From Bacteroidetes bacterium GWF2_38_335 (GTDB taxonomy: Bacteria > Bacteroidota > Bacteroidia > Bacteroidales > GWF2-38-335), in NCBI GenBank assembly GCA_001769535.1, contig MEOH01000026.1, positions 1 through 64,000 on the forward strand: 64,000 nt of DNA. Reading direction: 5' to 3'. The notes beneath the pieces were generated by a model. That model was not told the origin of the DNA, did no database searches, and saw only the letters and a list, made by a program, of their open reading frames with translations. The position numbers were made by a program, and so were the translations under genes. This document shows, piece by piece, positions 4,565 through 29,491 of the stretch (position 1 is the stretch's first letter; every line of letters starts with the position of its first letter).

Positions 4565-6049
4565 ATGGAAAATTTTATAATCCGTAAAAGGAATACAGTT
4601 ATTGAAAAATCTGGATTGATACTGTTTTTTTTATTTGCAACATTCCAGAGTTTCTCCCAATTTACCGTTAGGAATTTGTCAGGATCTTGTCCTGTTTACG
4701 AATCACCCAATGCCTCATGGAAAGATTTTAACTCTGATGGCTATCTGGATATCGTTTTGCATGGTTGCCTTAATGTTGGGGCGGACTGTTATGGAAGTGG
4801 TGTAATGTTTGTTTCTGAAGATGTTTCGTTTAATATGTACTTTTTCGATGAAGTGCCGGGCGGCATGTATTATATGGATGGCATCGCATGGGCTGATTTT
4901 AACAATGACGAAAAAATGGATTTGGTAATTTCCGGCTATTATGGGATTTTTGTTTATTTTCAGACTGATTCAGGGTTTGTTGATACCGTTATTGCTGATA
5001 TGTACTGTGGCGATCTGGATGTTGGTGATTATGATTTGGATGGCGATGCTGATATTCTTTCAAATGGAGTTTATGGTTTTGATCAGATTCCGTACACCAG
5101 TATATTTCTTAATAATGAAGGATTTTTTACGGAATCAACAGTTGAAATTGAACCGCTGAATTTAGGATCATGCGACTGGGGCGACTATGATCAGGATGGG
5201 GACCTTGATATTTGCTATAATGGTGTTGTTGGTGATGTTGAGGTTGCACCCGGACTGATATCCAAAACCTATATCCTCCGAAATGATGGCGGTGTTTATA
5301 ATAATATCGAAGCTCCTTTGCCCGGTTTGAGCCGCGGTGATATTGCATGGGTTGATTTCGACGGCGACGGAGATTTGGATTTAAGCATGAAAGGGTTGGA
5401 TTATTCATGCATCTATGAAACGGAATATATTCAATCATGGACTGATATATATTTTAAAATGTATGAAAATATTGACGGATCCTTTGTCGAAATTCCGGTC
5501 ACAATACCAGGCACAACCCTCGGAGCAATTGATTGGGGCGATTTTGATGCCGATGGTGATCCCGATTTGCTCATTTCCGGTGAAGTAGATACCGTTTCGG
5601 GCTGGCAATTCCTTAGCCGTTGCGCAGTGTATGAAAATATTGAAGGCACATTGACCCTGCTTGATACGGTTATTGGAAAAGTTCAAATTGCCAGGTGGGG
5701 AGATTATGAAGGCGACGGAGACCTTGATTTTCTGACTTATGGAGGAATACCCAAAGTAAGGTTATTTTTGAATGATATGATTACTGATTTTGAAAACAAG
5801 GAAATTCTAAAGGAAATCATTATCTATCCAAATCCTGCAAAAGATGAGATATTCGTTGAAATACCAGATGTGCATCGGAAGGGAAGGGTTTCCTGCGAAT
5901 TGTACGATGTAAACGGCCGGTTAATTGATTCCGGTTATTTTGACTCAACAGTCCGGAAAATTGATATTGCCGGATTAAATAGAGGGCTGTACGTTATAAA
6001 AATAAAATCATACAGTGGCTTAGTTATTGAAAAAATTGTAAAGATTTGA
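4565..6049 (+). CDS. FG-GAP/VCBS-like repeat protein with T9SS sorting domain
   Basis: I prefer the ATG at 4565 over 4511 because it gives a normal signal peptide (basic start, then a LILFFLFATFQSFSQ core), whereas the upstream extension is hydrophobic with no basic region. The mature part carries about six repeats with calcium-binding-like loops of the D-x-D-x-D-G-D-x-D type (DFNSDGYLD, DYDLDGDAD, DYDQDGDLD, DFDGDGDLD, DFDADGDPD, DYEGDGDLD). These are typical of FG-GAP/VCBS beta-propellers. The last ~75 residues form a type A T9SS domain (YPNPAKDEI, GRLIDSG, GLYVIKI). It is an exported, Ca2+-stabilised surface or released protein. Binding partner unknown. It stands alone, divergent from the kinase. 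Confidence 0.88.
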   Translation: MENFIIRKRNTVIEKSGLILFFLFATFQSFSQFTVRNLSGSCPVYESPNASWKDFNSDGYLDIVLHGCLNVGADCYGSGVMFVSEDVSFNMYFFDEVPGGMYYMDGIAWADFNNDEKMDLVISGYYGIFVYFQTDSGFVDTVIADMYCGDLDVGDYDLDGDADILSNGVYGFDQIPYTSIFLNNEGFFTESTVEIEPLNLGSCDWGDYDQDGDLDICYNGVVGDVEVAPGLISKTYILRNDGGVYNNIEAPLPGLSRGDIAWVDFDGDGDLDLSMKGLDYSCIYETEYIQSWTDIYFKMYENIDGSFVEIPVTIPGTTLGAIDWGDFDADGDPDLLISGEVDTVSGWQFLSRCAVYENIEGTLTLLDTVIGKVQIARWGDYEGDGDLDFLTYGGIPKVRLFLNDMITDFENKEILKEIIIYPNPAKDEIFVEIPDVHRKGRVSCELYDVNGRLIDSGYFDSTVRKIDIAGLNRGLYVIKIKSYSGLVIEKIVKI

Positions 6050-6179
6050 GAACGTAATTGATTATTGTTTGTTCCTTTTACCGTTTACAATGTAATTGTT
6101 TACAGTTAATGAAAAAAACATAAGATCTTTATTTTACTTTGATAACATTTATCTACTATATAAATTATTAATTATACAG

Positions 6180-6833
6180 ATGTCATTAATTAAATTAGAA
6201 ATTTTGAAAAGGTTGCTTCTGATAATTTTTGCCGCATTGTTTTTTTCTTTCGATCTTGATGCTAAACAAGTTGAAGGACTAATTATTTATGAAAACGATA
6301 CGGTGAAAGTTACATTTGATATTCCTGTGACAATGTTTAAGAAAAAAATAAACTTCAGAAAAATCCAATATCGGATAAAATATTTGGATTCGCTTGGAAA
6401 TAAGGAAGTTTTGAAGCCACGTATGGCTAAAGGGATTATCATAAAATTTGAGGAGTTGAACATTAAAATGATATCCGAAAAAAACTCTCTGACATGGTGG
6501 ACATTTCTTGTGAAAAATTCGAACATTTTTCTCAAACTGGAATTAAATGGTGAGTTAAAACTTTATAAATATTTCCTTCATCCTTCGTCAGGTACCGTTT
6601 ATACTCCTGGATCAAATCAATTTCTTTTTGTTAGCTACAAGGATAATGGAGTAAGATATGTGTTGAAAAAAGGAGAGGGGAAACTGAACAGGGTGTGGTA
6701 TGTTTATTATGTAATCGGAATGCAGGATTACTTTCGCGATTGTCCGGCCTTAGTTGATGCCTTAAACACCAAATACAAAAGCATTGAAGATATTGAGTTT
6801 ATTGTCAGGTTTTATAATTCGCAGTGTAAATGA
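6180..6833 (+). CDS. Exported protein of unknown function
   Basis: The ATG at 6180 yields a signal peptide (KRLLLIIFAALFFSFDLDA). The upstream TTG at 6096 would add a long extension and is unlikely. The mature protein of about 190 residues is basic and beta-rich in appearance. It has two cysteines in the C-terminal third (DCPALVDALN and QCK at the end) that could form a disulphide. No lipobox or sorting domain is seen. I do not recognise a family. It follows the FG-GAP-like gene by 130 bp on the same strand and may or may not be co-transcribed. Confidence 0.6.
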   Translation: MSLIKLEILKRLLLIIFAALFFSFDLDAKQVEGLIIYENDTVKVTFDIPVTMFKKKINFRKIQYRIKYLDSLGNKEVLKPRMAKGIIIKFEELNIKMISEKNSLTWWTFLVKNSNIFLKLELNGELKLYKYFLHPSSGTVYTPGSNQFLFVSYKDNGVRYVLKKGEGKLNRVWYVYYVIGMQDYFRDCPALVDALNTKYKSIEDIEFIVRFYNSQCK

Positions 6834-8071: not shown

Positions 8072-8406
8072 TTTCAATTCAGGGATGGTTGGATAAATAA
8101 ACCACTTACTTTTTCTTTACCCCTTTGATTATGGCTTCGCATATTTTATTAATATCTTTTTCTTGAGCACATGACAAAACTTTATGAACCAATAACTAAA
8201 GGTAGTAAAAATGAACTGCCCCGTTACAAGCAAACGGGGTATCAACTTAGGATTTATTACATATCCGCCCTAAGGGGCAAGGAACCGAGTTTACGAGCTC
8301 GGCGAAGCCAATAAAACCTTAGAGATCCCTCGGCTTCCCTCGGGATCAGTTCGACTAAATAATTTCAGTTCACTATCGTTCCTGAAATTATAGTCTCACT
8401 GATTTA

Positions 8407-8542
8407 AGATTTCTCCCTTCGGTCGAAATGACAAGATTAGTGTGTAGGTTGCAGTGGGAGATGGTTAGGCGGCAAACCGCCTAACCATCTCCCACTGCGA
8501 GTCCCCAAATTACCTTGTCATTTCGACCATCGGGAGAAATCT
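8407..8542. repeat. Nested inverted-repeat element (REP/MITE-like)
   Basis: Outer arms of 29 bp (8407-8435 and 8514-8542) are inverted copies with three mismatches, reading AGATTTCTCCC...GGTCGAAATGACAAG. Inside lies a perfect 22-bp inverted repeat (8451-8472 and 8477-8498) around a CAAA loop. The outer arm resembles a short sequence (TCATTTCGACC...GGGAGAAATCT) that I recall recurring in many Bacteroidota genomes, so this is probably one member of an interspersed non-coding family with a private stem inserted in its centre. Confidence 0.7.
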
Positions 8543-8603
8543 TTTGTAACTATTTGGAATCCAGTTTTGTATTTGTAATTAGATAAATTTTTGTCATGTA
8601 CAA

Positions 8604-8708
8604 TAATTTCAGGTATAAGTTGCACGATTCGGAAAACCTGCGAATTTTGTTCAGTTTAAAAGGGTGGAGGAAGAAATGATGGCGATTGAGGGGGAGGTTA
8701 ATGGGTAA
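8604..8708 (+). repeat. Gene-tail repeat family, copy A
   Basis: First of four related copies (others at 29873, 31495 and 32287). The last 60 bp read as an open tail VQFKRVEEEMMAIEGEVNG followed by a stop at 8706-8708. It is related at both DNA and peptide level to the other copies but has no upstream gene body. It lies immediately 3' of the minus-strand gene ending at 8715. Confidence 0.65.
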
Positions 8709-8714
8709 TGTTTA

Positions 8715-9332
8715 TTAATATATTTTAAACCCGATTCCAAAAAATGGAGAAATAGTAAAACGGCCATCCTCATTTTCATATTGTATTGATGGATTAGCAT
8801 AATAATAAAAATCAGAATAATAAATCAACTCACATGGAACAATTAATGAAATAAACAATTTTTTGCTAATTTCAAAATTTGCACCAAATACAATATTGAT
8901 TTCGGCTTGAAAATATTTTCTTTGTAAATCCCAATAATTTAAACCATCTTTAAAATACTTGTATTTATTTATATAGGGTTCGAAAGAAAAGCCAATTAAG
9001 GGCTTAATTTTGAATGGTTCGTTATTCAAAGGAGAAAATAACACTTCAAAATTCAATCCAATTTCAGTATTTTTTCCTTTATCATTTGAATATGAGGATT
9101 CTGCATACTCACTTTTAAACGATTGCAAGCCAATTCCAAAATGTAATCCATTTTTTCTTGTAAAAATTATATCAGTAACTGGTCCAATAAATGAATAATT
9201 AGTGCTCTCATATTTTTTTATGTATTTGACACCTGTTCTGGCATGTAGACTATAATTGGGGCTTTCTGCTGTTTGTGCAAAGGAAACAGTAAATAGAAAA
9301 ACAGTAATGATAACCAAAAAAAAGTACCTCAT
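8715..9332 (-). CDS. Outer-membrane beta-barrel protein (porin-like)
   Basis: This 205-residue protein has a signal peptide (FFLVIITVFLFTVSFAQ). Alternating strands and a predicted barrel run to a C-terminal aromatic strand (RFTISPFFGIGFKIY), as in small outer-membrane beta-barrel families of Bacteroidota. Several strands start with G-x-x-F/Y (HFGIGLQSF, EIGLNFEVLF, LIGFSFEPY). It has no partner gene. It is one of only three minus-strand genes in the 8-33 kb region and, like the one at 31567, ends just beside a gene-tail repeat. Confidence 0.7.
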   Translation of the reverse strand: MRYFFLVIITVFLFTVSFAQTAESPNYSLHARTGVKYIKKYESTNYSFIGPVTDIIFTRKNGLHFGIGLQSFKSEYAESSYSNDKGKNTEIGLNFEVLFSPLNNEPFKIKPLIGFSFEPYINKYKYFKDGLNYWDLQRKYFQAEINIVFGANFEISKKLFISLIVPCELIYYSDFYYYANPSIQYENEDGRFTISPFFGIGFKIY

Positions 9333-9388
9333 CTTTCAAAATTTATTTAATATGATTTTTTCAAAGCAATATTATAATAATATTCTTT

Positions 9389-9440
9389 CCTTTCCAAAAA
9401 TTCCCCTGCCCAATACATTTACCCAAAATTAAAATTTCAG
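9389..9440 (+). repeat. 52-bp repeat shared with 32235-32286
   Basis: The stretch beginning CCTTTCCAAAA and ending AAAATTTCAG matches 32235-32286 with few differences. At 32 kb it runs directly into a gene-tail repeat copy, so the two blocks probably form one larger element of which only the left part remains here. Confidence 0.55.
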
Positions 9441-9465
9441 CCATATAAGAAACCAAACCAATTTT

Positions 9466-9517
9466 GAAAGTCCGCCGTTTTTGATTAATTTTACTTTGGC
9501 TGTTGGTCAATGGGTTT
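9466..9517 (+). repeat. Leader repeat family, diverged copy 1
   Basis: The segment containing TTAATTTTACTTTGGC and then TGTTGGTCAA aligns with the better copies at 12366-12494 and 20660-20773. Like them it lies about 50-100 bp before the start of an unrelated plus-strand gene (9568). Confidence 0.4.
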
Positions 9518-9567
9518 TTTTACCCTGATAAAACCAACACACCTGACAAAATCGAAAAACCATTGTA

Positions 9568-10224
9568 ATGAAGTATTTTGGATTTATAGTTTTGATCTTG
9601 ATCTTGATGGCTTGCCAAAACAAAAAAGAAAAAGGCAATAATGAAATTATTTGTAATGAAGATACGCCAGTTGTTTCAATGGATTCGTCAGATATTAAAT
9701 CTGAAAAAGCATTTCGGGATAGCTTATACACATGCGAGTGTAACCAGTTTATTTCAAAGCTTGAGGAAATTCCTGACAGAGACTCGAACGCTTATAGAAT
9801 TACAATTAATTCAAAAGCAGGCGATTGGAAGAAATCAAAAATTATTAATACCCGACCCCAAATGTCTCGCATAAGTTATTGCTCTGAATTTTATACGGTT
9901 GTTAGTTTTGCCTGCGGTGGCCCCTGCCATTCCGAAGTTTTTATTTTTACGACTGAAGACAGACCAGACGAGCAATATGATTTTACGATACAAGTAAAAA
10001 ACAATCCTGATCTTATTGCTCACTACAGAAATGAAGAATTTGATAAACTCCTTATACACAACTTTAAAAACAACAAAGAACTGTCTGTTGACGTTTCAGA
10101 TGAAAGTTTTCATAGTTATGAGATAGACTCCTTGACAATGAATAAGAATATAATTACACTTCATTACACGTCAGAAAACGAAAAGCAAAAAACCAAAACG
10201 ATAAATATCAAATCCATATTATAA
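9568..10224 (+). CDS. Lipoprotein of unknown function
   Basis: This 218-residue protein has a lipoprotein signal (LILILMAC, Cys16) followed by a charged linker (QNKKEKGNN). Several cysteines are present (CNEDTP, CECNQF, SYCSEF, FACGGPCHSE). The FACGGPCH segment resembles a short disulphide loop. The second half is beta-rich. No family is recognised. The lipid anchor predicts attachment to the outer or inner membrane, facing the periplasm or surface. A diverged leader repeat precedes it. Confidence 0.68.
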   Translation: MKYFGFIVLILILMACQNKKEKGNNEIICNEDTPVVSMDSSDIKSEKAFRDSLYTCECNQFISKLEEIPDRDSNAYRITINSKAGDWKKSKIINTRPQMSRISYCSEFYTVVSFACGGPCHSEVFIFTTEDRPDEQYDFTIQVKNNPDLIAHYRNEEFDKLLIHNFKNNKELSVDVSDESFHSYEIDSLTMNKNIITLHYTSENEKQKTKTINIKSIL

Positions 10225-10433
10225 AAACACCCATGCTGAAAATGTGCGCTAATATGCATAACGGTTATTAATAGAATTAGATGAGACAGTCAATACAAGT
10301 TTTATTTAAAAGATGATCAAATAAAGACATTTTAAAACATGCATGAATAAATTTAGTTTTAAGAAGTAATACCTTATTTTTGATAACTGTAAATAGAAAA
10401 AATACTGAATATATCCCGGTTTTTAAAATTGTT

Positions 10434-11012
10434 ATGAAGTATTTAAAAGAGATATTGGTAATAGTGTCATATGTCTTCATGCTATTATCCTGCTACTTTT
10501 TAGAATGGAAACCACTTGGCCTGTTTCTTTCGTACCTTATTGAGGTTGTTGCCTTAATAGTTTTATATTCAGTTATCAGACTCATGGATCAGTCAAAAAG
10601 ACCGCAGATGTATAAAAAGCAGCCCCCTCTGGAAACCATTCTGATTTCGTGTATTCCTTTAATTTTGTTTCAATATTTTATAATAGGGTGGATGGCATCA
10701 TCCATAAATCCTGAAGAAAATTTCCTTAAAGAAAAACCATGGATGAGCCGGGAAGTGATTTATTCAGTAGTCTTCTTTATTATTATTTATATTATAAAAC
10801 TCAGGGATATCTCACAAAAAACTGAAAAAGTAAAAATTTTAAAAAATATTTTGCTTTTCAAAGCAGTTGCCCTGACACTTGTGAATGTTGTGGTTTCGGT
10901 AATTGTATTAGGTTTTAAAATTCATGATTTATTGCTGGTTGTTTCGCTAATGGCAGCATTCAGGATTTATCTGGAATGGTTCGCTTCACGGCAATTCTCA
11001 AAGATTAATTGA
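10434..11012 (+). CDS. Integral membrane protein (possibly DUF6498-like)
   Basis: I choose the ATG at 10434; the TTG at 10380 would add an unlikely polar tail. About 192 residues form roughly five or six membrane segments (ILVIVSYVFMLLSC, LFLSYLIEVVALIVLYSVI, LISCIPLILFQYFIIGW, VIYSVVFFIIIYII, LLFKAVALTLVNVVVSVIVL, LLLVVSLMAAFRIYLEW). The N-terminal G-L-F-L-S-Y-L-I-E-V pattern recalls DUF6498 membrane proteins, but this is only by appearance. Transport or signalling role unknown. No partner is obvious. Confidence 0.6.
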   Translation: MKYLKEILVIVSYVFMLLSCYFLEWKPLGLFLSYLIEVVALIVLYSVIRLMDQSKRPQMYKKQPPLETILISCIPLILFQYFIIGWMASSINPEENFLKEKPWMSREVIYSVVFFIIIYIIKLRDISQKTEKVKILKNILLFKAVALTLVNVVVSVIVLGFKIHDLLLVVSLMAAFRIYLEWFASRQFSKIN

Positions 11013-11325
11013 TTTTGATGGGTAGGTTAAATAATAGATTTATAAACCCGGCACTTTGTTTACTGAGGAGGAAAACATTAAATAAATACAGGCAAATGCA
11101 ACAATTAAATATATTTTTTGGCGACAGTTAGTTTGGAAAAGACATGATAAAAAAACCGGGGAATTCGGTTTTTGTTATAAAAAATATTGTTTTATATTTA
11201 CATTTAAATCCATGAGAAAGTACGGTTATCTATCCATAAGTTGCCAGAAGACCTTAATTTTGTCACGGTTATAAAAGTTATGAGAAAATTGAATATTAAA
11301 GTAATCTGAAAATTATTTCTGAATT
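11013..11325. other. Intergenic region with duplicated upstream element (copy 1)
   Basis: A fragment of the leader repeat (GGCGACAGTTAGTTTGGAAA) lies near 11119-11140. Positions 11158-11226 closely match 27004-27072, with a promoter-like TATATTTA box and an upstream TTTTTG 18 bp away. Both copies precede unrelated membrane-protein genes (11326 and 27151), and the similarity fades towards the start codons. A hairpin of CCGGGGAATTCGG type sits near 11157. Confidence 0.55.
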
Positions 11326-12339
11326 ATGATCATAGAATTTCAAAACACAAAAAGGAATTTGTGGATGTATTTCTTAAGATTTCTTTTTTCCAGAAATTTG
11401 CCGGGGTTTATTTTATTTTTTCTTGTTATATGTGCAATTTCTTTTGTGTTTGGTAACAGAGTGGATGATGAATTGGAATCTGTATTAATTCCTTTGATTT
11501 TGATACTTTTAATTTTATTGTTTTTTATTGTTCCGGTCTTCTTTTTGAGAAGATATGTAACGAATGATTTTTTTACTCAAAATCTAAAGCTGACTATTGA
11601 TGATAATGGAATTAAACTAGAATCACTTGCTGAAGTTAAAACAGCTAATTTCAATGAAATAAAAGATATATACATTCACAGAAAATTCATCCTGATTTTG
11701 ATCCCGAAGCAAAGAACCATCATAGTTCCGAATGATGCTGTTTTTATAGACAACTCTCGCAAACAGCTTATAGATTATTTAAAAAGCAGGGCTTCTAATT
11801 TAATAGTAGAGGATATGGAAAGCATAAATAACCGAAAGGGTAATTTACTGTATCTTTTAGGGATTTTGTGTTTAATTCCATATCTCGGAGCATTTGTCGG
11901 GATAATTCTGGCTGCTTTAGGCCTGGGAAAAAATAAAAATAAAATTCTGGTGGCAATCGGCAGCATCGGAGTAATTATAACCATATTCGTTCACATTAAT
12001 ATTGTAAATGCCAGAAGAGAATTAAATAAAGATAAATATTTTGAAACTAAGAAGGCCAAAGGAATGCTAATAATTATAGTAAAAGATATTGAATTGTATA
12101 AAGTTCAATTCGGAGTTTATCCTGACAGCCTTGAACAATTAAACGAAATTGAACCGGTTGATATAATTGATCCGCTGGGTGTAAACCAAAGTAAATATTG
12201 TTATAAAAAATCAGGCAGCAAGTACACTTTGTTTTCCATTGGTTTGGATGGGAAAATGAATACGAAAGATGATATCTTTCCGGTAATTAAAGACAAAAAT
12301 GGGAAATTTGGGTTAATTATTGAGAATAGTGCAAAGTAA
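11326..12339 (+). CDS. Membrane protein with PH-like and GspG-like C-terminal domains
   Basis: A 337-residue protein with three parts. First, two membrane segments (GFILFFLVICAISFVFG, IPLILILLILLFFIVPVFFL) and a YcxB/PH-like beta domain (KLTIDDNGIKLESL ... IPKQRTIIVPNDAVF). Second, a glycine-rich double membrane hairpin (YLLGILCLIPYLGAFVGIILAAL, ILVAIGSIGVIITIFV). Third, a C-terminal domain that reads like the soluble part of a type II secretion major pseudopilin GspG (DIELYKVQFGVYPDSLEQL, DPLGVNQSKYCY, LFSIGLDGKMNTKDDI). GspG normally follows a single N-terminal methylated helix, so this is a fusion. Function unknown; the GspG-like Ca2+-loop region suggests an extracytoplasmic C-terminus. 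Confidence 0.65.
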   Translation: MIIEFQNTKRNLWMYFLRFLFSRNLPGFILFFLVICAISFVFGNRVDDELESVLIPLILILLILLFFIVPVFFLRRYVTNDFFTQNLKLTIDDNGIKLESLAEVKTANFNEIKDIYIHRKFILILIPKQRTIIVPNDAVFIDNSRKQLIDYLKSRASNLIVEDMESINNRKGNLLYLLGILCLIPYLGAFVGIILAALGLGKNKNKILVAIGSIGVIITIFVHINIVNARRELNKDKYFETKKAKGMLIIIVKDIELYKVQFGVYPDSLEQLNEIEPVDIIDPLGVNQSKYCYKKSGSKYTLFSIGLDGKMNTKDDIFPVIKDKNGKFGLIIENSAK

Positions 12340-12365
12340 ACAGCAGTTGCCAGTATGATAATTTT

Positions 12366-12494
12366 ATTTGGGCGACCATCAGTTTGGAAAGTTTGGAAAA
12401 CTCACAGCAATAAATTAACTTTACTCCCGGCGGTTAGTCAAGCAGTATTTAATCCCAAACAAAAACACGGAACGTTGCATAATAAAACGACACA
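12366..12494 (+). repeat. Leader repeat family, full copy 2
   Basis: The block contains GGCGACCATCAGTTTGG, then TTAACTTTACTCCCGGCGG, TTAGTCAAGC and CACGGAACGTTGCATAA, ending at the ATG at 12495. The copy at 20660-20773 shows the same order of motifs before another unrelated gene. The order and the position next to a start codon suggest a shared 5' module rather than chance. Confidence 0.6.
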
Positions 12495-12941
12495 ATGAAA
12501 AAATTTCTACTCATTTTGACAGGATTTATCCTTTTTAATAATGTTACCGGACAAGTAAGTAATAGAATTAATATTTTTAATAAGGATTCCGGTATCACCG
12601 GGTTTAGTATTGATGATTACGACCGATTTAATCCAACTGAAAATGATTTTCTAATTGCCGATAGCTTAGCGAAAATTTATATTATACAAAATTCAGGCAA
12701 ATTGACACATGATAACTCGTCAATTGACAATTACAATGATTATTACAAGCAAGTCTATGGTTTAATCAATAAAAATGGAGATAAAATAATCTTTTTGAAT
12801 TGTTTTTGTAGTGCAGAAAATAATGATTTTTGGAAAAATAAGACAGTATCAGTAAAAGGTGGCGGAAAATGTTATTTTAGCATAAAGATTAATTTGACAG
12901 AATTTAAAACATTTGATTTTTGGATTAATGCATCTGAATAA
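12495..12941 (+). CDS. Small exported protein of unknown function
   Basis: This 148-residue protein has a signal peptide (FLLILTGFILFNNVTGQ). The mature protein starts with SNRINIFNKDSGITGFSIDDYDRF, is rich in Asp/Asn and contains two or three cysteines (FLNCFCSAEN, GGKCYFS). No lipobox or sorting domain is seen. No family is recognised. It begins immediately after the leader repeat, and its own spacer has no better promoter. Confidence 0.6.
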   Translation: MKKFLLILTGFILFNNVTGQVSNRINIFNKDSGITGFSIDDYDRFNPTENDFLIADSLAKIYIIQNSGKLTHDNSSIDNYNDYYKQVYGLINKNGDKIIFLNCFCSAENNDFWKNKTVSVKGGGKCYFSIKINLTEFKTFDFWINASE

Positions 12942-13128
12942 TAAAAATAAGCAATGTAACAGAGCCTGCCAAAAAGCAGGAATTCAGTGCTTTTGGAGAT
13001 GGAAAAGTGTATTCCCGATAGAGGCGGAGTACAAAGATAATTTACGTCAAAATGATTAAAAAATAATAACAAAAAAACTAAACAAAATAAGCAAGTGTAA
13101 CCAATCAATAACCCGGAGTTCAACCATT

Positions 13129-13620
13129 ATGAATAAACAGTATGAATTAAATTCGAACGTACTCGTACTCAGAGTAAAAAAAGCTCCTTTGTTTGTCAGG
13201 TCCGTCATGTTCTTTTTCTCCTTTTTGTTTTTCCTGCTTCCCTTAACCGGAATGATTTTAGCAATAACAATGGGCAAAGGAATGCATTTTGGTTTTATAA
13301 TAGGAATGTTCGTTTTTGGAGTATTGGGATTCTATATGCTGCGCATATCATTATTGAATACCTTTGGAAAGGAAATCATTACATTCGAAAATACGAACAT
13401 AACTTACATTGCCGACTATGGATGGTTTAAGGATGGTAAAAAACAAAAAGAATATGAGAAGCCTCTTAAATACACGATCAGACAAATTGGCTATAAGGAA
13501 GACAACGAAGGAGGACTCGTTATTGAATTAGAAGAACCAATTTTATGTGTTACAAAAATGCCGAATGCTGAACTCGGAGAATTGATTGATATATTGAATG
13601 ACTTATATATCACGCAGTAA
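13129..13620 (+). CDS. Two-TM membrane protein of unknown function
   Basis: This 163-residue protein has a cytosolic start (YELNSNVLVLRVKKAP), two adjacent membrane segments (VMFFFSFLFFLLPLTGMILAI, HFGFIIGMFVFGVLGFYML), and then a beta-rich tail of about 90 residues (KEIITFENTNITYIADYGWF ... GGLVIELEEPILCV). The layout resembles small PH-like membrane proteins of Bacteroidota, but no family is certain. A 190-bp spacer precedes it. Confidence 0.58.
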   Translation: MNKQYELNSNVLVLRVKKAPLFVRSVMFFFSFLFFLLPLTGMILAITMGKGMHFGFIIGMFVFGVLGFYMLRISLLNTFGKEIITFENTNITYIADYGWFKDGKKQKEYEKPLKYTIRQIGYKEDNEGGLVIELEEPILCVTKMPNAELGELIDILNDLYITQ

Positions 13621-13733
13621 GAAAAATGACGCAAAATTACAATCGAAAAAAGCCCTGCAATTAATAGCTGCAGGATGTTGAAATAATATTTTCCCATAAT
13701 CCCCGTTTATCCCAAAATCAAAACCCTGAAGTC

Positions 13734-14150
13734 ATGCAAAATATTTGGATTGTTTCGTTGGTTGTTATAACCACAGTGTTTTTCTCAAGCTGTAATGAAG
13801 AAAAAACCAGTGCTGAGAAAAAGGAAAATACTATTGTTGGAAAGTGGGAAAAAATTAACAAAAATGGTTTTAATTTGGAATTCACTGAATCAGGAAAATT
13901 GTATTATTGGGAAAATGGTGAATATTTAACAGATTCAACTGGTGAAAAGTTCTCATTAGATTGCAGTTATGAAAAAATTAGTAATGAAGAATTTGAAGTA
14001 ATATATACGGAGATTCCGGGTTATGATACAATCCAAAAATTAAGGATATTATTTATTGAACCAGACATCATTAAAATAATGGTGATAACTAATGATTCAA
14101 TAAAGGTTTCAGAGGATAAATTTCACAGGGTAAGCAGCATTTCAGAATAA
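13734..14150 (+). CDS. Lipocalin-like lipoprotein
   Basis: This 138-residue protein has a lipobox (VFFSSC, Cys21) followed by a charged linker. The mature part opens with IVGKWEKINKNGFNLEFTESGKLYYWENGEY. The G-K-W start and the F-x-x-x-G-x-L-x-x-W pattern are typical of lipocalin-like proteins of Bacteroidota that form a small beta-barrel. It is lipid-anchored in the periplasm or on the surface. Ligand unknown. It stands alone, followed by gene debris. Confidence 0.65.
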   Translation: MQNIWIVSLVVITTVFFSSCNEEKTSAEKKENTIVGKWEKINKNGFNLEFTESGKLYYWENGEYLTDSTGEKFSLDCSYEKISNEEFEVIYTEIPGYDTIQKLRILFIEPDIIKIMVITNDSIKVSEDKFHRVSSISE

Positions 14151-14207
14151 ATGAAATAACTTCTCATTGTCCTTTCTACTTAAAATTTTCATTGCTATCG
14201 TCACAGC

Positions 14208-14294
14208 ATGGAAAAATCAATTCACATGTTTTCGGCAATTGTTCAGGTGCTGGAGCTGAGTAAAGTGGAAAAAGTTTCTCTTTTTCTTTTATAA
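14208..14294 (+). pseudogene. Gene remnant (FSAI...ELSK motif), copy 1
   Basis: The frame reads MEKSIHMFSAIVQVLELSK... for 28 codons to a stop. It aligns over its whole length with 22755-22847 (IEKSIDLFSAIAQMRELSK...). Both copies are preceded by a similar non-coding stretch and neither is attached to a full gene. The DNA is less AT-rich than its surroundings. This is probably the relic of a mobile-element or phage-type gene; the family is not recognised. Confidence 0.5.
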
Positions 14295-14399
14295 GTTATA
14301 ATTGTGACATATCGGGGAGGATGGCTGGCGCTCGTTGATGATCAGTATAGGAGCTTGAGGTTTGGGGAGTGGGAGGGTGTTTTGAAAGAGTTTGAATAG

Positions 14400-14425
14400 A
14401 CGGGCTTTTTGCCCGTTTTTTTTTT
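14400..14425 (+). terminator. Rho-independent terminator
   Basis: The stem ACGGGC/GCCCGT closes a five-T loop and is followed by a run of nine or more T. It lies directly after the decayed tail and would also insulate the gene at 14524. Confidence 0.75.
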
Positions 14426-14523
14426 GATAATTACCAGCAAAATGTTAATATTGATGCAGGGTTTGATTTTTAAATGGTTTGAAAATGTATCAGTTAATAA
14501 ATACTATTTAATTTAAATAATTA

Positions 14524-15891
14524 ATGTACAGACAAATAACTACTTTTTTTGTAATAATTATTTTTTCTTTTTATGGAGAATGTCAGATTGAAATTGCAGA
14601 AATTTCAAATTTGAAGTATAAAAATATTGAAGAATTGCATTTTCAAGCAGATTCGTCTGGTAACATTTTTTATTACTATAAATGTACCCCAATTTATAAT
14701 TTAGGTATAATTACAGAAAAAAGAACCGAAAATCTTTTGTTGGCGGTACAAACAGAATACTTTCCTAAAATATTAGGCACCATCTATGATGAGGATAATT
14801 TTTTCATGTATTATTGGGGTGATAGCGAAATTAGAAACACCTATATTAGCTGTTATACAGTTAATAAAAAATCAGGAATAACTACAAATACTTCAGGAAC
14901 ACATTTGTATTTAAATTCCAGTGACAAATATGTCACACATTTTATTGCCGATAATAAATTCTTTGTTATTACTCTAAATAAGAGTCAGAATAAATTATAC
15001 CTGTTAAAATTTGGTAAGGGAACCGAATTTGAAAGATTTTCCTTTACCTGGATAGTCCCGATACCATTGATTGAAATGAAAAAAATAGATTTTGGCTACA
15101 TTAGCAATTCGGAAATTAACAAACTGGCCCAATCAGTAAATAAAAACAAGATATTTTGTTCTGATGGAAATACAATTTATCTAACGGCCGAGCAAATTAA
15201 TAAAACCACTAAAAAACCACTAACGTTAGTTGTAAAGCTGGATTTAAAAACCAATGAACTTAGTTATATTAATATTGAGCAAAAAATTGAAAACTATAAT
15301 ACATATATTTTTGAAGATAAACTTTTTAACATTTATTCAAACGATACATGCCTTAATTTATCTGTGTTTTCAATGGATACCCTTAATTTGATTAAAGATT
15401 TTTCATATTCTTATAAAGATTCAATCGGACTAAAATGCAGCCCGCTGTTTTACAGATATGTTGAAACAGCTTTCGATAAAACAATAGTTACTACTTCTGT
15501 CAATGAGTTTGAAACAATAAACAAATCCACTTATAATGAACTAAATAAATACTCTGTCTTAATACATGTGAGCAGGATAAATAATAAGACATTAAATATT
15601 TGTATAGGAAGTTATAAGATTATATATAATTATTATTACGGCTACGGCACTGAATTAAGAGATGATGTAGTAATTAATGAATTTGGTTTATATTTTGAAT
15701 CATATTTAGATGAAAATAATTATTCAATTATTAACAATGTTGAATATAAAAATATTCAAAGAAAGATTGATGAATATAGACATAGTATTAATTTTAATGG
15801 TCTGGAAACAGTATTTGCCAATAATAATAATTACTATATTTCTTACTTTGATAAAGAAAATAGGGTAATAAAAACTATCCAGATTGAGTGA
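14524..15891 (+). CDS. Large exported protein of unknown function
   Basis: This 455-residue protein has a signal peptide (ITTFFVIIIFSFYGECQ). The mature part is beta-rich and reads like a WD/propeller-type protein of short strands (YFPKILGTIYDEDNFFMYYWG, HFIADNKFFVITLNKSQNKLYLLKF, LTLVVKLDLKTNELSYINIEQ), but clear repeat signatures are missing. It is rich in Asn, Tyr and Lys with very AT-rich codons. There is no sorting domain at the C-terminus, so it may stay in the periplasm. No family is recognised. Confidence 0.6.
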   Translation: MYRQITTFFVIIIFSFYGECQIEIAEISNLKYKNIEELHFQADSSGNIFYYYKCTPIYNLGIITEKRTENLLLAVQTEYFPKILGTIYDEDNFFMYYWGDSEIRNTYISCYTVNKKSGITTNTSGTHLYLNSSDKYVTHFIADNKFFVITLNKSQNKLYLLKFGKGTEFERFSFTWIVPIPLIEMKKIDFGYISNSEINKLAQSVNKNKIFCSDGNTIYLTAEQINKTTKKPLTLVVKLDLKTNELSYINIEQKIENYNTYIFEDKLFNIYSNDTCLNLSVFSMDTLNLIKDFSYSYKDSIGLKCSPLFYRYVETAFDKTIVTTSVNEFETINKSTYNELNKYSVLIHVSRINNKTLNICIGSYKIIYNYYYGYGTELRDDVVINEFGLYFESYLDENNYSIINNVEYKNIQRKIDEYRHSINFNGLETVFANNNNYYISYFDKENRVIKTIQIE

Positions 15892-16107
15892 GGAAATTAA
15901 AAAAATAAATATCTAGTGCAAAACTAAAAAGAACTGATGAGCTTATTTGATTTTATCAAAACCAAAATGAAAATGTCCCATGTTTGCCAACCGGTATCAA
16001 TGTTTATCGTTTTTCTACATTAATTAATTACTTATTTATTTGATTGTTTAGTTCTAAAAAAAATATATAATATCTTTACTCACACAGGCCATGGAAAATA
16101 TTAAATT

Positions 16108-16542
16108 ATGAAACTTGAAAATTATAAAAAGGATGCGCAGTATTTTACAGGAAAACTTAGTGATATTAATAGGTACTTGGCATTTGTAGGAATAGGTATT
16201 ATTTGGATTTTTAGAACAGATTTAAATGGAGTGAAAGTATTCCCGGAAGAATATATTATTCAAAGAGAATTAATTCTGCCTTTAGGATTATTTATCATAT
16301 CTCTATTATTAGATTTTATTCAATATACTTATTCATCAGTTGTTTGGTCAATTTTTTATAGAATACATGAGAAAAGAAAAAGAAAAAATCCTGATGATTA
16401 TTTAATTGATGATATTAAAGCACCAAGTTATCTTTCAAATATTTCATATATCTGTTTTTTCTATCCTAAGATTATTGTAAATTTTATTGGTTATGTTTAT
16501 CTTATGGGTTATATATTTAAAGGTTTATATATTTACTTATAA
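16108..16542 (+). CDS. Small integral membrane protein
   Basis: This 144-residue protein has about three membrane segments: LAFVGIGIIWIF, LILPLGLFIISLLLDFIQYTY and IIVNFIGYVYLMGYIFKGLYIYL. A basic cytosolic loop (RIHEKRKRKNPDDYL) lies between the second and third. A TATCTTTA-like -7 box lies near 16069. Similar small proteins are common as unassigned genes in accessory regions. No function can be given. Confidence 0.58.
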   Translation: MKLENYKKDAQYFTGKLSDINRYLAFVGIGIIWIFRTDLNGVKVFPEEYIIQRELILPLGLFIISLLLDFIQYTYSSVVWSIFYRIHEKRKRKNPDDYLIDDIKAPSYLSNISYICFFYPKIIVNFIGYVYLMGYIFKGLYIYL

Positions 16543-16903
16543 GCACTTACAGTTTTTCAGATCAGTGTTTTTGGATTTTTATTATTTCAGAGGAGTTATT
16601 TTCACCTCAACTCCGCCAACATCTGATTCCCTTTCATCATATCATGCGGTGTGTAAATGTCGGTCATGGCGATGGGGTAGTGGCGTATCCGGTCACTGAC
16701 TAAAAGACAACTGTAAGGTAACTTTTTTAAGGCAGTTTGGTTTTAATGGATTCAGAATGAAAACGTTCAGTTGATTTGTAAATTTGTTTTTTTTTAATAT
16801 ATTTACATTAAAATCTTAAAAAAAAACGCTTAATCCGATTCATTCACTGATCAGCTTAGTTCTATCAGAATATTGGGGTTAACCGGACCTATAAACAAGC
16901 TAT
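16543..16903. other. Intergenic region with GC-richer gene-tail fragment
   Basis: Positions 16602-16690 on the minus strand hold a gene-tail fragment described separately. The rest is AT-rich leader; a TAATATATTTACATTAAA stretch near 16796 resembles the promoter box of the duplicated upstream element at 11190 and 27040. Confidence 0.45.
16602..16690 (-). pseudogene. Gene-tail fragment (DRIRHYPIAMTDIYTPHDMM)
   Basis: The minus strand reads SDRIRHYPIAMTDIYTPH, then DMMKGNQMLAELR and a stop, in DNA clearly richer in GC than the surroundings. No start or upstream body remains. The peptide looks like a well-conserved protein end, perhaps from a phage or conjugative element. A weaker relative of the last ten residues (EGNWMLTEFE, then stop) is at about 28518-28550, also on the minus strand. 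Confidence 0.4.
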
Positions 16904-18517
16904 ATGAAAAAAAAGATATTTATTTTTGCAATTTTCCTTAATTCCATTTTAACAATTAATGCTCAGACCCCGGAATGGGAATGGGCTAATAGCTTTAAGG
17001 GATCCAGTTATAAAACGGCTACCGACAACGAAGGTAATTGTTACTTAACTGGTGGTTTTAACGGCACAACAATTTATTTTGACAGTTACATGTTAAATAG
17101 TTTTGGCGCTTCAGATGTTTTTGTGGTTAAATACAATTCGTCCGGAAATGTAGAATGGGCATATAACTACGGCAGCAGTTTTATTGAGTCTGGTCAATCA
17201 ATAGCCGTTGATGATGATGGTAATTGCTATATTACAGGAAGTTTCTCGGGACCTACAATTACTTTAGGCACAACTACCTTCACTAACCATGGGGATGTTG
17301 ATTTTTTTACAATAAAGATAAATCAATCAGGAGAAATATTATGGGCAAATAGTTTTGGAGGCAGCGGAAATGATATGAGTACTGATATTTCCATTGATGA
17401 AATCGGCAATGTTTTTATAACCGGAAGGTATGATAGTCCGGAAATTAATATAGGCACTGATACCATGGCTTCAATTGAAGAATGGGATATTTTTGTAATG
17501 AAATTTGATCCGGAAGGAAACGTTGCATGGGGCAGTTCATCCGGTGGCGAGGGTGTTGAATATACCAGTAGTATATGCACGGATATTAATGGAGATGTTT
17601 TTATTACAGGAAAATTTGCAAGTCCTATGTATTTTATTGGCAACGATACTTTGTTTAATCCCTTTGGAAATGAAATTTTTATTTTAAAATATGATACCGA
17701 AGGAAATGCTGTATGGTACACAAATATTGCCAGTACTTCGTCATCTTATGGTTCAGGGATAGATACTGATGATAGCGGAAACTTTTATGTGACAGGATAT
17801 TATAACGGGGATTCCATCAGTTTTGATGATGTTACATTAATAAACACGGTTGATTATACTTTCGATATTTATATTGTGAAATTTGATTCGTTATATAATG
17901 TTGTTTGGGCGAAAAATGCGGGAGGGACATCTATTGATGGTGCATACGATATCAGTACTGATTCTTATGGAAACAGTTATATTACAGGAGAATTTTCAAG
18001 CAACGAAATCGCATTTGGCCCTTTCACATTGATTAAAGATGGAGATTTAGATATTTTTGTTGCCAAGTATGATTCAAACGGAAATGAATTATGGGCAATA
18101 AGTGCCGGTGGGGATAACTATGATGAGGGACTCTCTGTAAGTAGTATTGAAAGTGATAATTGCTATGTTACGGGGCATTATATGAGCAACTATATTGCAT
18201 TTGGTGATGATACACTTATAAACCCTACTACAACTACATACTATCAGTTTGTTTCAAAAATAGGAATAAAGACAGGCGAAGAGATAAACACTGTAAATGA
18301 TGGTATTCAGATTTATCCAAATCCCACAAACGGATTGTTCACAATTGAGGGCATAACAGACGAAAATACTTTTTTTGAGATTACTGATATTACCGGCAGA
18401 ATAATTCAAACAGGATACCTTAAAAACAAACAGGAAATTGTTGACCTGTCAAAGTATAATAACGGTTTATACGTGCTGAAAATTGATGGACAGACAATTC
18501 TTTTATTAAAGCAATAA
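16904..18517 (+). CDS. SBBP-type beta-propeller protein with T9SS sorting domain
   Basis: This 537-residue protein has a signal peptide (FIFAIFLNSILTINAQ). About eight repeats of ~55 residues follow, with the pattern D-x-x-G-N-x-Y-I-T-G-x-F and then D-I-F-V-x-K-Y/F-D-x-x-G-N-x-x-W, as in SBBP beta-propellers. The C-terminal ~75 residues are a type A T9SS domain (YPNPTNGLF, GRIIQTGYL, GLYVLKID). It is secreted through the outer membrane. The gene at 18917 encodes a diverged paralogue of the same build, so the pair arose by duplication. Ligand unknown. Confidence 0.9.
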   Translation: MKKKIFIFAIFLNSILTINAQTPEWEWANSFKGSSYKTATDNEGNCYLTGGFNGTTIYFDSYMLNSFGASDVFVVKYNSSGNVEWAYNYGSSFIESGQSIAVDDDGNCYITGSFSGPTITLGTTTFTNHGDVDFFTIKINQSGEILWANSFGGSGNDMSTDISIDEIGNVFITGRYDSPEINIGTDTMASIEEWDIFVMKFDPEGNVAWGSSSGGEGVEYTSSICTDINGDVFITGKFASPMYFIGNDTLFNPFGNEIFILKYDTEGNAVWYTNIASTSSSYGSGIDTDDSGNFYVTGYYNGDSISFDDVTLINTVDYTFDIYIVKFDSLYNVVWAKNAGGTSIDGAYDISTDSYGNSYITGEFSSNEIAFGPFTLIKDGDLDIFVAKYDSNGNELWAISAGGDNYDEGLSVSSIESDNCYVTGHYMSNYIAFGDDTLINPTTTTYYQFVSKIGIKTGEEINTVNDGIQIYPNPTNGLFTIEGITDENTFFEITDITGRIIQTGYLKNKQEIVDLSKYNNGLYVLKIDGQTILLLKQ

Positions 18518-18916
18518 AAGACGAGTTTGCAAATTTTAATAATTCTTGGAGTTCTTGGATTCAAAAAAGATGTCAGAAAGTGAATTTATTAGAGTAAATG
18601 TTTTTTTCAAAGGAATAGATTATTAGTTTTTTATTGTACTGAAACCGTAAACCCTGCTCATAGTTGTTTTGGAGAAGACCGGTATACCATTCACATGATT
18701 TCAATCAATTCATTTGGTCCGGATAAATTGATAAGTAGTTAGTTATTTGGGGATTGTCAAATAAAAAGATGGTTTTTTGTTTGTGATTAACAAAAAAAAA
18801 TGTATACTTGTTTACTTTTTCAGCACAGATTTAATAGGGTTCGGATTTGTGTCTGAAAGTAAAAGAATTGTTTTTAGAACCCCGCTGTAGACGACCCATA
18901 ACTAAAACCTGAAATT
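18518..18916. other. Intergenic region, nothing clear
   Basis: 399 bp of AT-rich spacer between the two beta-propeller paralogues. I see no gene, strong hairpin or member of the repeat families in it. Confidence 0.4.
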
Positions 18917-20560
18917 ATGAAAACATTTATTCTTTCCATGCTGTTTTTTATACCATTTGCTTTGGCATCACAAACCACTATTTGGTCAGATTACCGTTAC
19001 AACAATAGTAATGACATATATACAAATTCCGTTATATTTGATCAATTTGGGAATTCTTTTGTAGGTGGTACCTATTTTGCATCTCTGTATTTTCCAAACG
19101 ATACTCTGACTACTTATTACAGTGGTCCAAATAATTATCCTGATATTTTCATAACAAAATATGATTCACTTGGCAATATTAAATGGGCAATTAATGACGG
19201 GGGTGTTAATGACGGAGACTATTGCGAAGATTTAGTTTCAGATTATAATACAGGGGATGTCATTTCTGTTGGCTATTATCGTGGAGATGATGCTTTTGGC
19301 GGTTTACCTTCTTCTTCCTATATGGCTGCATATATTGCAAGGTATGACAGTACCGGTACTTTATTATGGAGCGTCGGAGGAAAATGTCCTTCTGCCGATG
19401 TTGTGTCAAGGGCAGTTGACATTGATCCAGATGGGTTTATATATGTATTTGGTGAAGCAACATCATCAATAAATATGAGTCCGTTTTATCTGGACAGCTT
19501 TGATTATGGATTTTTTTTAGCGAAAATTTCCCCTCAGGGAAATCCTGTTTGGTTAAAAGCATTTGATTCTTCTTCAAATCGTTCTGTTGCTGATATAAAA
19601 TATGATGAAAACGGATACATTTATATTTCCGGAGCATTTAATCATGAACTGAACTTTAATGACACCATTATTTATCCAAATCTTGGAGGGTATTCTGACT
19701 TTTTTTGCGCAAAACTTGATACTGCCGGTAATTTAATTTGGGTCAATAAAGCGGGTGGTTATACAAATGATTATGGCTATAGTATGGATATAGATAATGA
19801 AGGGAATAGTTATTATTATGGCAGGTTTGCAGATTCAATTGTTTTTGAAAATGATACAACTATTTATGGTTTAGGCGATAAAGATCAGTTTACAGCCAAA
19901 TATAATAGTGATGGCCAGCTTGTTTGGGCAAAGACATTTATTGCAGCCGGGGATTATGAAATATATTATAATTTTAGTTTTCCAAGGATTGTTTTAGATA
20001 ATACCGGAAACATGTATATCGCAGGGAATTTTAAAGGGGTGGGACACATAGGGACGGATTCTATTGTAAACTCCGCAACTGATTATGATATTTTTTTAGT
20101 CAAGCTGGACACAAGTGGAAATCCTATTTGGATTTCAACATCATATAGTGAAAGCGATCAATACTGCAGGGATATTTCCTATAACAATGGAAAAATTTAT
20201 ATGACAGGCATGGCTCATGGAACAGACATTAACATATTTGGTGATACATTAACATATTTTCCAACAATGAATTATTTTGTTGCTGTATTAGATACTACTG
20301 ATTCAAGCTTACCAACATATTTTGAGAATCAAAATAAAATGGAGAATATTGTGGGTATTTATCCAAATCCGGCAAGCAATGCCCTTTTTGTAAAGAATGC
20401 GAGTGAAGGCACCATATTTATTTATAACCTGTTGGGGATTCTACTGGATGAAGTAGAAGTGACCTCAGATAATCAAATGATTAACCTGTCCGATTACAAA
20501 CCGGGAACATACATTCTCAGACATAATGAATTTACAGAAAAATTCTTTATAATCAAATAA
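18917..20560 (+). CDS. SBBP-type beta-propeller protein with T9SS sorting domain (paralogue)
   Basis: This 547-residue protein has a signal peptide (ILSMLFFIPFALASQ). Propeller repeats carry the same D-x-F-x-x-K-Y-D-S-x-G-N-x-x-W core as the preceding gene (DIFITKYDSLGNIKW, FFLAKISPQGNPVWL, DFFCAKLDTAGNLIW, DQFTAKYNSDGQLVW, DIFLVKLDTSGNPIW). The C-terminus is a type A T9SS domain (YPNPASNALF, GILLDEVEV, GTYILRHN). It is exported to the surface or released. The long spacer argues for separate transcription from its paralogue. Confidence 0.9.
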   Translation: MKTFILSMLFFIPFALASQTTIWSDYRYNNSNDIYTNSVIFDQFGNSFVGGTYFASLYFPNDTLTTYYSGPNNYPDIFITKYDSLGNIKWAINDGGVNDGDYCEDLVSDYNTGDVISVGYYRGDDAFGGLPSSSYMAAYIARYDSTGTLLWSVGGKCPSADVVSRAVDIDPDGFIYVFGEATSSINMSPFYLDSFDYGFFLAKISPQGNPVWLKAFDSSSNRSVADIKYDENGYIYISGAFNHELNFNDTIIYPNLGGYSDFFCAKLDTAGNLIWVNKAGGYTNDYGYSMDIDNEGNSYYYGRFADSIVFENDTTIYGLGDKDQFTAKYNSDGQLVWAKTFIAAGDYEIYYNFSFPRIVLDNTGNMYIAGNFKGVGHIGTDSIVNSATDYDIFLVKLDTSGNPIWISTSYSESDQYCRDISYNNGKIYMTGMAHGTDINIFGDTLTYFPTMNYFVAVLDTTDSSLPTYFENQNKMENIVGIYPNPASNALFVKNASEGTIFIYNLLGILLDEVEVTSDNQMINLSDYKPGTYILRHNEFTEKFFIIK

Positions 20561-20659
20561 GTTACTCATAATGAGGAGGATTTAAGGAAGATTCTGAATC
20601 AGGTAATTGTTTTTTTATGTTTATGCAGCAGGCTGTACCAGACAGGTTGTTAGTATTGA

Positions 20660-20773
20660 ATGGGTAGCTATAGGTTTGGAAAGTTCGATGCAATTAATTA
20701 GCTTTACTACCGGCGGATGGTTAAGCGATTTTTAAGCATGAACAAATCCAACACGCGGAACGTTATAAATTAT
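20660..20773 (+). repeat. Leader repeat family, full copy 3
   Basis: It contains GGTTTGGAAAGTTC, TTAGCTTTACTACCGGCGG, GGTTAAGC and CACGCGGAACGTTATAA in the same order as 12366-12494, ending 30 bp before the ATG at 20805. GCTTTAC and GTTAAGC form an imperfect inverted pair around the GC-rich centre (20701-20726). Confidence 0.6.
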
Positions 20774-20804
20774 TTGTCTCAACAAAATATTTAACTAAAA
20801 CATT

Positions 20805-21464
20805 ATGGATATATTTGATATTAAAACCTGGTATAATTATGAAATACCAAATGAATGGAAAAATGAGTTAAAAACACATTCAGGATTAATTTCTGAAGAA
20901 AAGGGTTTTTGGAGAGCATTTAAAAGTGCGCATAAAATTAATTTTGATGATTTAAAGGAATTATTAAGAGTAAAACAGTTTTCGTTAAACACACCTGTTG
21001 ATACAATTGAACCTATTTCAAAATTTAGTGAACTTGAAATTTTTATTTCAAGTAACTTTAATCATGCATATAAAGAAATAAAATTCCTGCAAAAATGTCG
21101 AAAATTGGAAAGACTTACAATTAGGGATAATAGAAATATAATTGATTGGGAATTTTTAAATACAATGGCAAATTTGAAAGTTTTAAAATTAGTCGGAACT
21201 AATTTTAGGGATCTGAAAAATATTGAAAATATTAAATATTTAGAGCATCTGGAGTTAAATAATCTAAAAAACGAAGACTATTCTATTCTATCTAAATTGA
21301 CTAATTTATGTTCCATAAGTCTTAATTCGTGTGATGTGCGTGATTTGTCATTTGTTTATTCTTTATCAAATATTTTTAGTCTGAACATTGAGTATACAAT
21401 GGTTGATAATGATCAAATATTGAAACTGAAGTCAAAAATGCCTAATATTGAAATAAAATATTAA
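20805..21464 (+). CDS. Leucine-rich-repeat-like protein, cytosolic
   Basis: This 219-residue protein has no signal or membrane segment. Residues ~70-215 form about six LRR-like units (LEIFISSNFNHAYKEIKFLQKC, LERLTIRDNRNIIDWEFLNTM, LKVLKLVGTNFRDLKNIENIK, LEHLELNNLKNEDYSILSKL, LCSISLNSCDVRDLSFVYSL, IFSLNIEYTMVDNDQILKL). LRR domains bind protein partners. Only 4 bp separate it from the next gene, so the two probably form an operon. The leader repeat lies upstream. A sensor or adaptor role is possible but not shown. Confidence 0.7.
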   Translation: MDIFDIKTWYNYEIPNEWKNELKTHSGLISEEKGFWRAFKSAHKINFDDLKELLRVKQFSLNTPVDTIEPISKFSELEIFISSNFNHAYKEIKFLQKCRKLERLTIRDNRNIIDWEFLNTMANLKVLKLVGTNFRDLKNIENIKYLEHLELNNLKNEDYSILSKLTNLCSISLNSCDVRDLSFVYSLSNIFSLNIEYTMVDNDQILKLKSKMPNIEIKY

Positions 21465-29408: not shown

Positions 29409-29491
29409 GCTGTTATTTTTGTCCGGCTAAGATAAAGAATATTTTGAATTATATATATTATTGTTAATAAATTGAACCCGGGCACACCCAA

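Follow-up and report, generated by a model that had tools for sequence, protein, structure and literature searches.

An attC-like site family and an IntI-related recombinase lacking the IntI insert: a probable integron-like gene-cassette system of Bacteroidota

A block of ordered motifs recurs between unrelated genes in a 64,000-nucleotide stretch of Bacteroidetes bacterium GWF2_38_335 (contig MEOH01000026.1, positions 1 to 64,000), here called the window. This block is most probably an attC-like recombination site belonging to an integron-like gene-cassette system of Bacteroidota, which appears to bring in and exchange genes, among them drug-resistance genes in related bacteria. A cassette would consist of a gene or short operon with a site at its 3' end; the block would form the 3' terminus of the gene in front of it, with GTT and the bases after it going to the following gene. 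In single-stranded form the site would fold into a long hairpin in the order AACA, stem, variable core, stem, about five bases and CGTT. A tyrosine recombinase related to IntI, devoid of the extra segment in the catalytic domain, would insert cassettes, with GTT as the joining point, at an attI-like site (TATAA...AGTT) that mostly lies 80-102 nt past the recombinase gene, and arrays would extend along the orientation of this gene. The copies in the window would be old, partly decayed sites away from any recombinase gene, the same genome keeping a recombinase and three sites on another contig, C17. The site family, the GTT breakpoints, the one-directional arrays, the attI-like motif and the missing segment are all established by comparing sequences across genomes.

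The breakpoints are displayed by resistance genes on plasmids. A relative of the window sites, L082, lies between an OXA-like gene, identified by eye, and aadS. Six plasmid records match in a search with this site, each solely from GTT or from 1-3 nt before it, and five of the six were retrieved for comparison. Seven aadS copies carry six distinct upstream sequences, and in 20 of 20 pairs with different neighbours identity stops 33-36 nt upstream of the ATG, either directly at GTT or 1-3 nt earlier. The hairpin finder detects a hairpin upstream of aadS in four of the six contexts and none in the floR and DHFR contexts; in the DHFR context, from Riemerella, the aadS junction, ATAAATAA followed by GTTG, resembles the attI motif by eye. 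On plasmids of Bacteroidota, attC-like sites also lie directly behind OXA, MYO-1, OXA-347, aadS and tet(X) genes. A preliminary description of the window had taken the block for a 5' module travelling with the gene behind it. The aadS comparison overturns this, for only the bases from GTT onward accompany the next gene. The gene capture that it had proposed was right in kind, since there is a site family exchanging genes at GTT together with a linked recombinase. A separate observation is an IS91 family transposase beside a short tyrosine recombinase (L093:4854-6004 and 8198-9346; L095:8209-9347; L236:10954-12896); in L093 and L095 the pair adjoins copies of a single attC-like site, which looks like its target.

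Within the source genome, a sequence-only model made from eight of its copies (R1) finds 21 places at E≤1, of which 13 reach E≤2.3e-9; two weak matches, L057 and L058, fall inside genes and look like chance. Copies viewed with their flanks reveal that the block starts further upstream than first described, with a 5' arm directly behind the preceding gene. In the better copies this arm reads TAACAGCGTGTTAATTTTATTTGGGC and mirrors the 3' end, GCCCAAACAAAACCAACACGCGGAACGTTA, as an imperfect inverted repeat; the 3' arm ends in GTT. Such an arrangement is typical of an integron attC site and not of a 5' leader. The ordered block of the preliminary description is present, then, and its bounds were incomplete at the 5' side. 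An ATG-initiated open reading frame (ORF) of at least 60 aa begins on the same strand within 60 nt 3' of the block in 11 of the 13 strong copies, compared with 21% of random intergenic placements in the same genome (n=2080; binomial P 1.8e-6). Among these 11, the ORF of L044 enters a stretch of N; L038, another strong copy, is too close to a contig end to show an ORF. A same-strand ORF stop lies within 60 nt 5' of the block in seven of the 13, against 13.6% of random placements (P 7e-4). This order of gene, site and gene is that of integron cassettes. Toxin-antitoxin-like genes adjoin three copies and count in favour of the cassette reading: YefM and YoeB genes precede the copy at C29:46994, a helix-turn-helix protein and a Gp49-like protein (just below the Pfam cut-off) precede that at C27:338411, and a ParE-like protein precedes that at C9:76029. 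All of these except the ParE-like protein were searched as 70-aa starts only.

The copies of the source genome fit a hairpin plan weakly. The named structure pairs 80.7% of cells, compared with at most 46.7% when the alignment is slid. RNAalifold predicts two weak hairpins on a short alignment of the block. A structure model built from eleven copies of this genome only (R2) detects full-length sites of the same plan in at least five other genomes of 395, with at most seven candidates scored per genome. In these relatives the stem letters differ and the plan is kept: AAC, A, stem, core, stem, four or five bases, GTT. One of them, L084, lies between tetracycline-efflux-like and dihydropteroate-synthase-like genes (identified by eye). 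One genome of the same genus gives no match to R1 or R2, and a same-genus comparison for an empty site returned a single 45-nt match.

The wider family was examined in a set of 62 sites, scored with our own hairpin-finder script, which was tuned on known sites; 43 are left after removal of near-duplicates, and 31 sites passed a length and locus filter. An alignment of 27 sites (A3) contains 24 of these 31, picked without a rule, together with L036, L044 and L081. The structure pairs 87.7% of the cells of A3 and no more than 42.2% once the alignment is slid; there are 152 double-change cells versus 51.6 in shuffles, and the covariation score is 0.615 versus 0.147. Two other measures are no higher than in shuffles, and the structure test is partly circular because the 24 rows were chosen as hairpins. 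The A following AAC and the C preceding GTT are invariant in A3, though not required by the finder, and one A.C mismatch, equivalent to a T.G wobble on the bottom strand, is kept in 25 of the 27 sites. A.C outnumbers G.T by 48 to 12, or by 23 to 12 without the conserved-mismatch column. Of 43 family sites, 27 fold better as the bottom strand, and of 11 copies of the source genome only 3 do so; a single DNA strand would be the substrate. At family level the sites have the folded form of attC, with R''/R' ends and a GTT breakpoint, subject to the same partial circularity, and the source-genome copies have it weakly. An over-specific pattern drawn from the core had no match in sets of genome contigs and viral contigs. 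One further member, L081 (G361:C18:32975-33123), has arms close to the window type and sits in a genome outside the window's class that carries a true IntI (C1:85174-86118). Because this IntI-bearing genome holds a window-like site, cassettes may pass between true integrons and the insert-free system.

An associated recombinase, which the preliminary description had suggested looking for elsewhere, is encoded on C17 at 5478-6602; a family site stands at 1532-1670 of the same contig. This 374-aa tyrosine recombinase is IntI-like, its best curated model being the integron integrase (220.6 bits) and its best PDB match IntI4, with a XerC-like protein a close second. Three sites lie 3' of its gene on the same strand, and homologues (E≤1e-40) occur in 153 of 295 sampled genomes of the window's class. 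The linkage of sites to this gene was surveyed at 21 recombinase loci, namely that of C17 and 20 loci chosen from the best homologues with contig extent in view, mostly omitting genes at contig starts. At a score of at least 26, the finder places 30 sites downstream on the same strand and one on the other strand in 88 kb, two upstream in 183 kb and none in 378 kb of control sequence. Lowering the score to 22 gives 37 downstream on the same strand, four on the other strand, seven upstream and 11 in the control. Twelve of the 21 loci have a downstream site at the higher score; of the other nine, the contig ends within 0.75 kb in six and continues for 1.8-3.7 kb in three.

A family model (R3), which contains the source-genome copies L036 and L044, was run on 36 genomes and extends this association. 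All 16 held-out genomes with the recombinase have R3 matches (1-28 each), compared with 10 of 16 recombinase-negative genomes (0-22; P 3.7e-4), where negative means no match at E≤1e-40; the negative genomes are not independent, because several belong to one family. Among the matches listed, 35 sites lie within 40 kb of a recombinase gene on its contig, and 35 of 35 are downstream on the same strand. The arrays of two genomes illustrate tandem cassettes in a single orientation, as in integrons: that of G478 has 16 sites, all on the plus strand (one also listed on the minus strand), and that of G536 has 15, all on the minus strand. In the source genome, R3 gives 33 matches at E≤0.01, with groups of 2-4 on C23, C24, C14, C2 and C17. 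The recombinase of the C17 type is, we infer, the acting enzyme.

A conserved motif marks the place where these arrays start. Behind the recombinase stop in most loci stands TATAA, followed by a few bases, AGTT and then A or G. This motif is found in 25 of 32 loci, compared with two of 196 control ORF ends and a shuffled mean of 1.9 (maximum 7 of 500), and in 21 of the 25 it lies 80-102 nt behind the stop. Among 11 loci that played no part in defining the motif, seven have it; the four without it include L148, a broken gene. The regular-expression matches in L067 and L195 are not the best candidate there. Two Chryseobacterium plasmids are 91% identical over 2158 nt through the recombinase up to TATAAACAAGTT and then differ, the divergence falling exactly behind the GTT of the motif. 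In one of them, from SNU WT5, the motif is followed first by a palindromic stretch, which turns up again within the array, and then by four full R3 sites. An attI-like site thus stands beside the recombinase gene where arrays start, as attI does beside the integrase gene of integrons. The palindromic stretch is about 140 nt long and occurs three times in the SNU WT5 array in near-identical form (L237:10169-10308, 12264-12403 and 14645-14784), once directly behind the attI-like site; it may be a gene-free cassette or some other mobile element. The same array has an annotated group II intron gene.

Several results weigh against interpreting the block as a recombination site of such a system. Recombination itself is deduced from the comparison of sequences. 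Among the 11 source-genome copies, compensatory changes show no excess over shuffles, the blocks in their first outline fold no better than shuffled sequences, and the hairpin finder, at a score of at least 22, misses the window sites, finding two other places in the window and one in a shuffle. Three of 15 recombinase loci with more than 1 kb of contig downstream have no site at a score of at least 24, recombinase-negative genomes can be rich in sites (22 and 19), and of the two Chryseobacterium plasmids only that of SNU WT5 has sites, the C. oryzae plasmid having no R3 site at E≤0.01. The enzyme itself departs from IntI. The C17 recombinase lies below the TIGR02249 cut-off of 265 bits and scores nearly equally as archaeal XerA (216.1 bits, cut-off 220). 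The catalytic-domain insert, I2, is absent from 12 of 12 aligned recombinases of its group and present in 12 of 12 IntI, and a tree, with long-branch warnings, separates IntI (one clade, 100/100) from the insert-free group (94/88). These two failures, of the insert and of the TIGR02249 cut-off and IntI clade, are why the system, which would work like an integron, is classed as an integron variant and not as a plain integron.

The missing insert raises the question of whether the same sites are moved by a true IntI from elsewhere, the insert-free recombinase merely adjoining the arrays and having another role. I2 recognises extrahelical bases of attC according to passages of PMC8138268 and PMC4792948, and the former describes the insert as essential for integron function. 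IntI over the cut-off is present in 105 of 395 genomes of the phylum, one of them, G361, being the holder of L081. Among the 107 genomes listed with IntI, however, only G096 belongs to the window's class, where the insert-free gene is so frequent, and the source genome has no IntI over the TIGR02249 cut-off; moreover, the arrays go with the insert-free gene, as do their direction and the attI-like motif. A true IntI acting from elsewhere is therefore unlikely.

It is quite unlikely, too, that the block is only a promoter or transcribed leader common to unrelated genes, with TTTG...TTAATTA..TTTAC as the promoter and the rest as a 5' untranslated region. The frequency with which copies directly precede an ORF (the 11 of 13 above) agrees with such a role, and TAnnTTTG, the −7 box of Bacteroidota, runs forward in eight and in reverse in one of the 43 family cores (mean 2.0 and maximum 6 across 200 shuffles). 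Yet the block begins at the end of the preceding gene and its arms are mirrored, the window copies lack the last G of the −7 box (TAGCTTTAC), and the relatives show six different sequences upstream, sharply bounded at GTT, and lie in recombinase-linked arrays. An Rfam search of the window returned two tRNAs only, the block having no match above the gathering score. The promoter and site readings are compatible because a site may carry a promoter too, and a cassette-borne promoter in the family cores is possible, the signal being weak. A remnant of a miniature inverted-repeat transposable element with terminal inverted repeats would account for dispersed single copies, for imperfect arms decaying independently and for a half copy at C16:101042. 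The regular orientation, the gene borders on both sides and the full-length relatives with GTT breakpoints in arrays make this origin highly improbable.

The attC-like reading places two clear copies in the window, both on the plus strand, like the other window sites and the neighbouring genes given below, and the ordered motifs reported before the genes at 12495 and 20805 are indeed there. The first copy (12338..12491) has its 5' arm adjoining the stop of the preceding gene, its ordered motifs at 12362-12482 and its predicted crossover GTT at 12474..12476. It matches R1 (E 2.8e-23) and R2 (model positions 1-150, E 7e-25), both of which include it, and R3 at 12341-12484 (E 5.5e-6), which includes two other source-genome copies. 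The gene ending at it, its owner under the cassette reading (11326..12339), has no Pfam match over the cut-off, and the small protein gene on its 3' side (12495..12941) has no Pfam match. The second copy (20630..20779) has a weak 5' arm, ordered motifs at 20654-20771 and a predicted crossover GTT at 20762..20764; both crossover points rest on the local letters and on analogy with the aadS breakpoints. It matches R1 (E 1.3e-28) and R2 (E 8.2e-28), again as a member of both, and R3 at 20633-20772 (E 5e-7). The gene before it (18917..20560) encodes a Por_Secre_tail domain and ends 94 nt before the R1 match; that on its 3' side (20805..21464) has weak leucine-rich-repeat matches under the Pfam cut-off. 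The Por_Secre_tail domain, like the relatives of the window, points to Bacteroidota.

A third copy, noted earlier before the gene at 9568, is real and degenerate. It spans 9427..9560, has no recognisable GTT end, matches R1 at 9458-9543 (E 2.3e-9, this copy being outside the model), reaches only E 0.002 with R2 and is not listed by R3 at E≤0.05. The gene on its 3' side (9568..10224) is lipoprotein-like by eye and has no Pfam match. Of the partial copy noticed near 11119, a motif scan retains a doubtful 5' fragment (11120..11139), which may be chance and which R1 does not list at E≤1. The window sites resemble decaying relatives of sites with good stems, and their poor stems, together with the lack of excess compensatory changes in the 11 source-genome copies, make relics more likely than an active array; the copies probably once moved genes. 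Directly 3' of the gene at 12495-12941, the stretch 12957-13020 (TAACAGAGCCTGCC...) is weakly similar to the 5' half of a different site type in this genome, that of C4:65935 and C17:86-222 (20 nt at 95%, E 0.002; 17 nt, E 0.11). If this similarity is real, the gene would be a whole decayed cassette. Elsewhere the window contains a 132-nt direct repeat, 96% identical (40675-40806 and 43298-43429, 2.6 kb apart), adjoined by GC-rich repeats at 37175-37235, 40614-40674 and 43249-43309, and a tandem repeat at 29488-29769 with a period of 21 nt (AGCAAACGTC...) and at least 11 copies.

A comparison with integrons that use IntI, including sedentary chromosomal integrons and clusters of attC sites lacking integrases (CALINs), brings out both sides of this variant. 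A folded 3' site on cassettes, a GTT breakpoint, arrays, toxin-antitoxin cassettes and an attI-like site beside a related recombinase are shared. The recombinase, in contrast, has no IntI insert and falls below the IntI cut-off, and the array follows the direction of the recombinase gene, with attI behind its 3' end. The usual integron layout is divergent. Passages of PMC8138268 describe an integron-like subgroup of tyrosine recombinases that are related and in which the insert is not fully conserved; by description, these passages contain no insert-free cassette system. A 2026 paper on aph(3')-IVb in Riemerella anatipestifer (PMC13148043) offers a likeness, by description only, in an attC-like fold of about 140 bp behind a resistance gene that integrates without flanking homology; the parts concerned mention neither a recombinase nor an attI and do not settle the mechanism. 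Bacteroidota stand in lists of integron carriers (PMC8618304, PMC9668308, in the sections concerned). Surveys find integrons rare in Bacteroidetes, and IntegronFinder 2.0 reports a complete one in Salinibacter ruber, previously In0 only (PMC9024848, in the relevant passages). Eleven taxon-specific attC models exist, none of them for Bacteroidetes, according to passages of PMC8352920. In the open-access PMC literature, preprints excluded, no published description of the recombinase, attI and site family together was found.

We lean towards the view that the window's class has an integron kind of its own, with a Xer/IntI-like recombinase from which the attC-binding I2 was lost or had always been absent, a new attI behind its 3' end, and transferable resistance genes (aadS, OXA, MYO-1, tet(X)) as cassettes. 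Escudero et al. (PMC4792948, in the passage concerned) pose the puzzle of how selection could act on the I2 domain ahead of attC sites, and vice versa; the insert-free system could be an intermediate in it or an independent invention. If the proposed system is real, a cassette system without I2 makes this question of origin testable, and a large cassette reservoir has been overlooked in Bacteroidota, one already used by resistance genes. The borders AACA...CGTT and TATAA...AGTT would let annotators delimit such cassettes.

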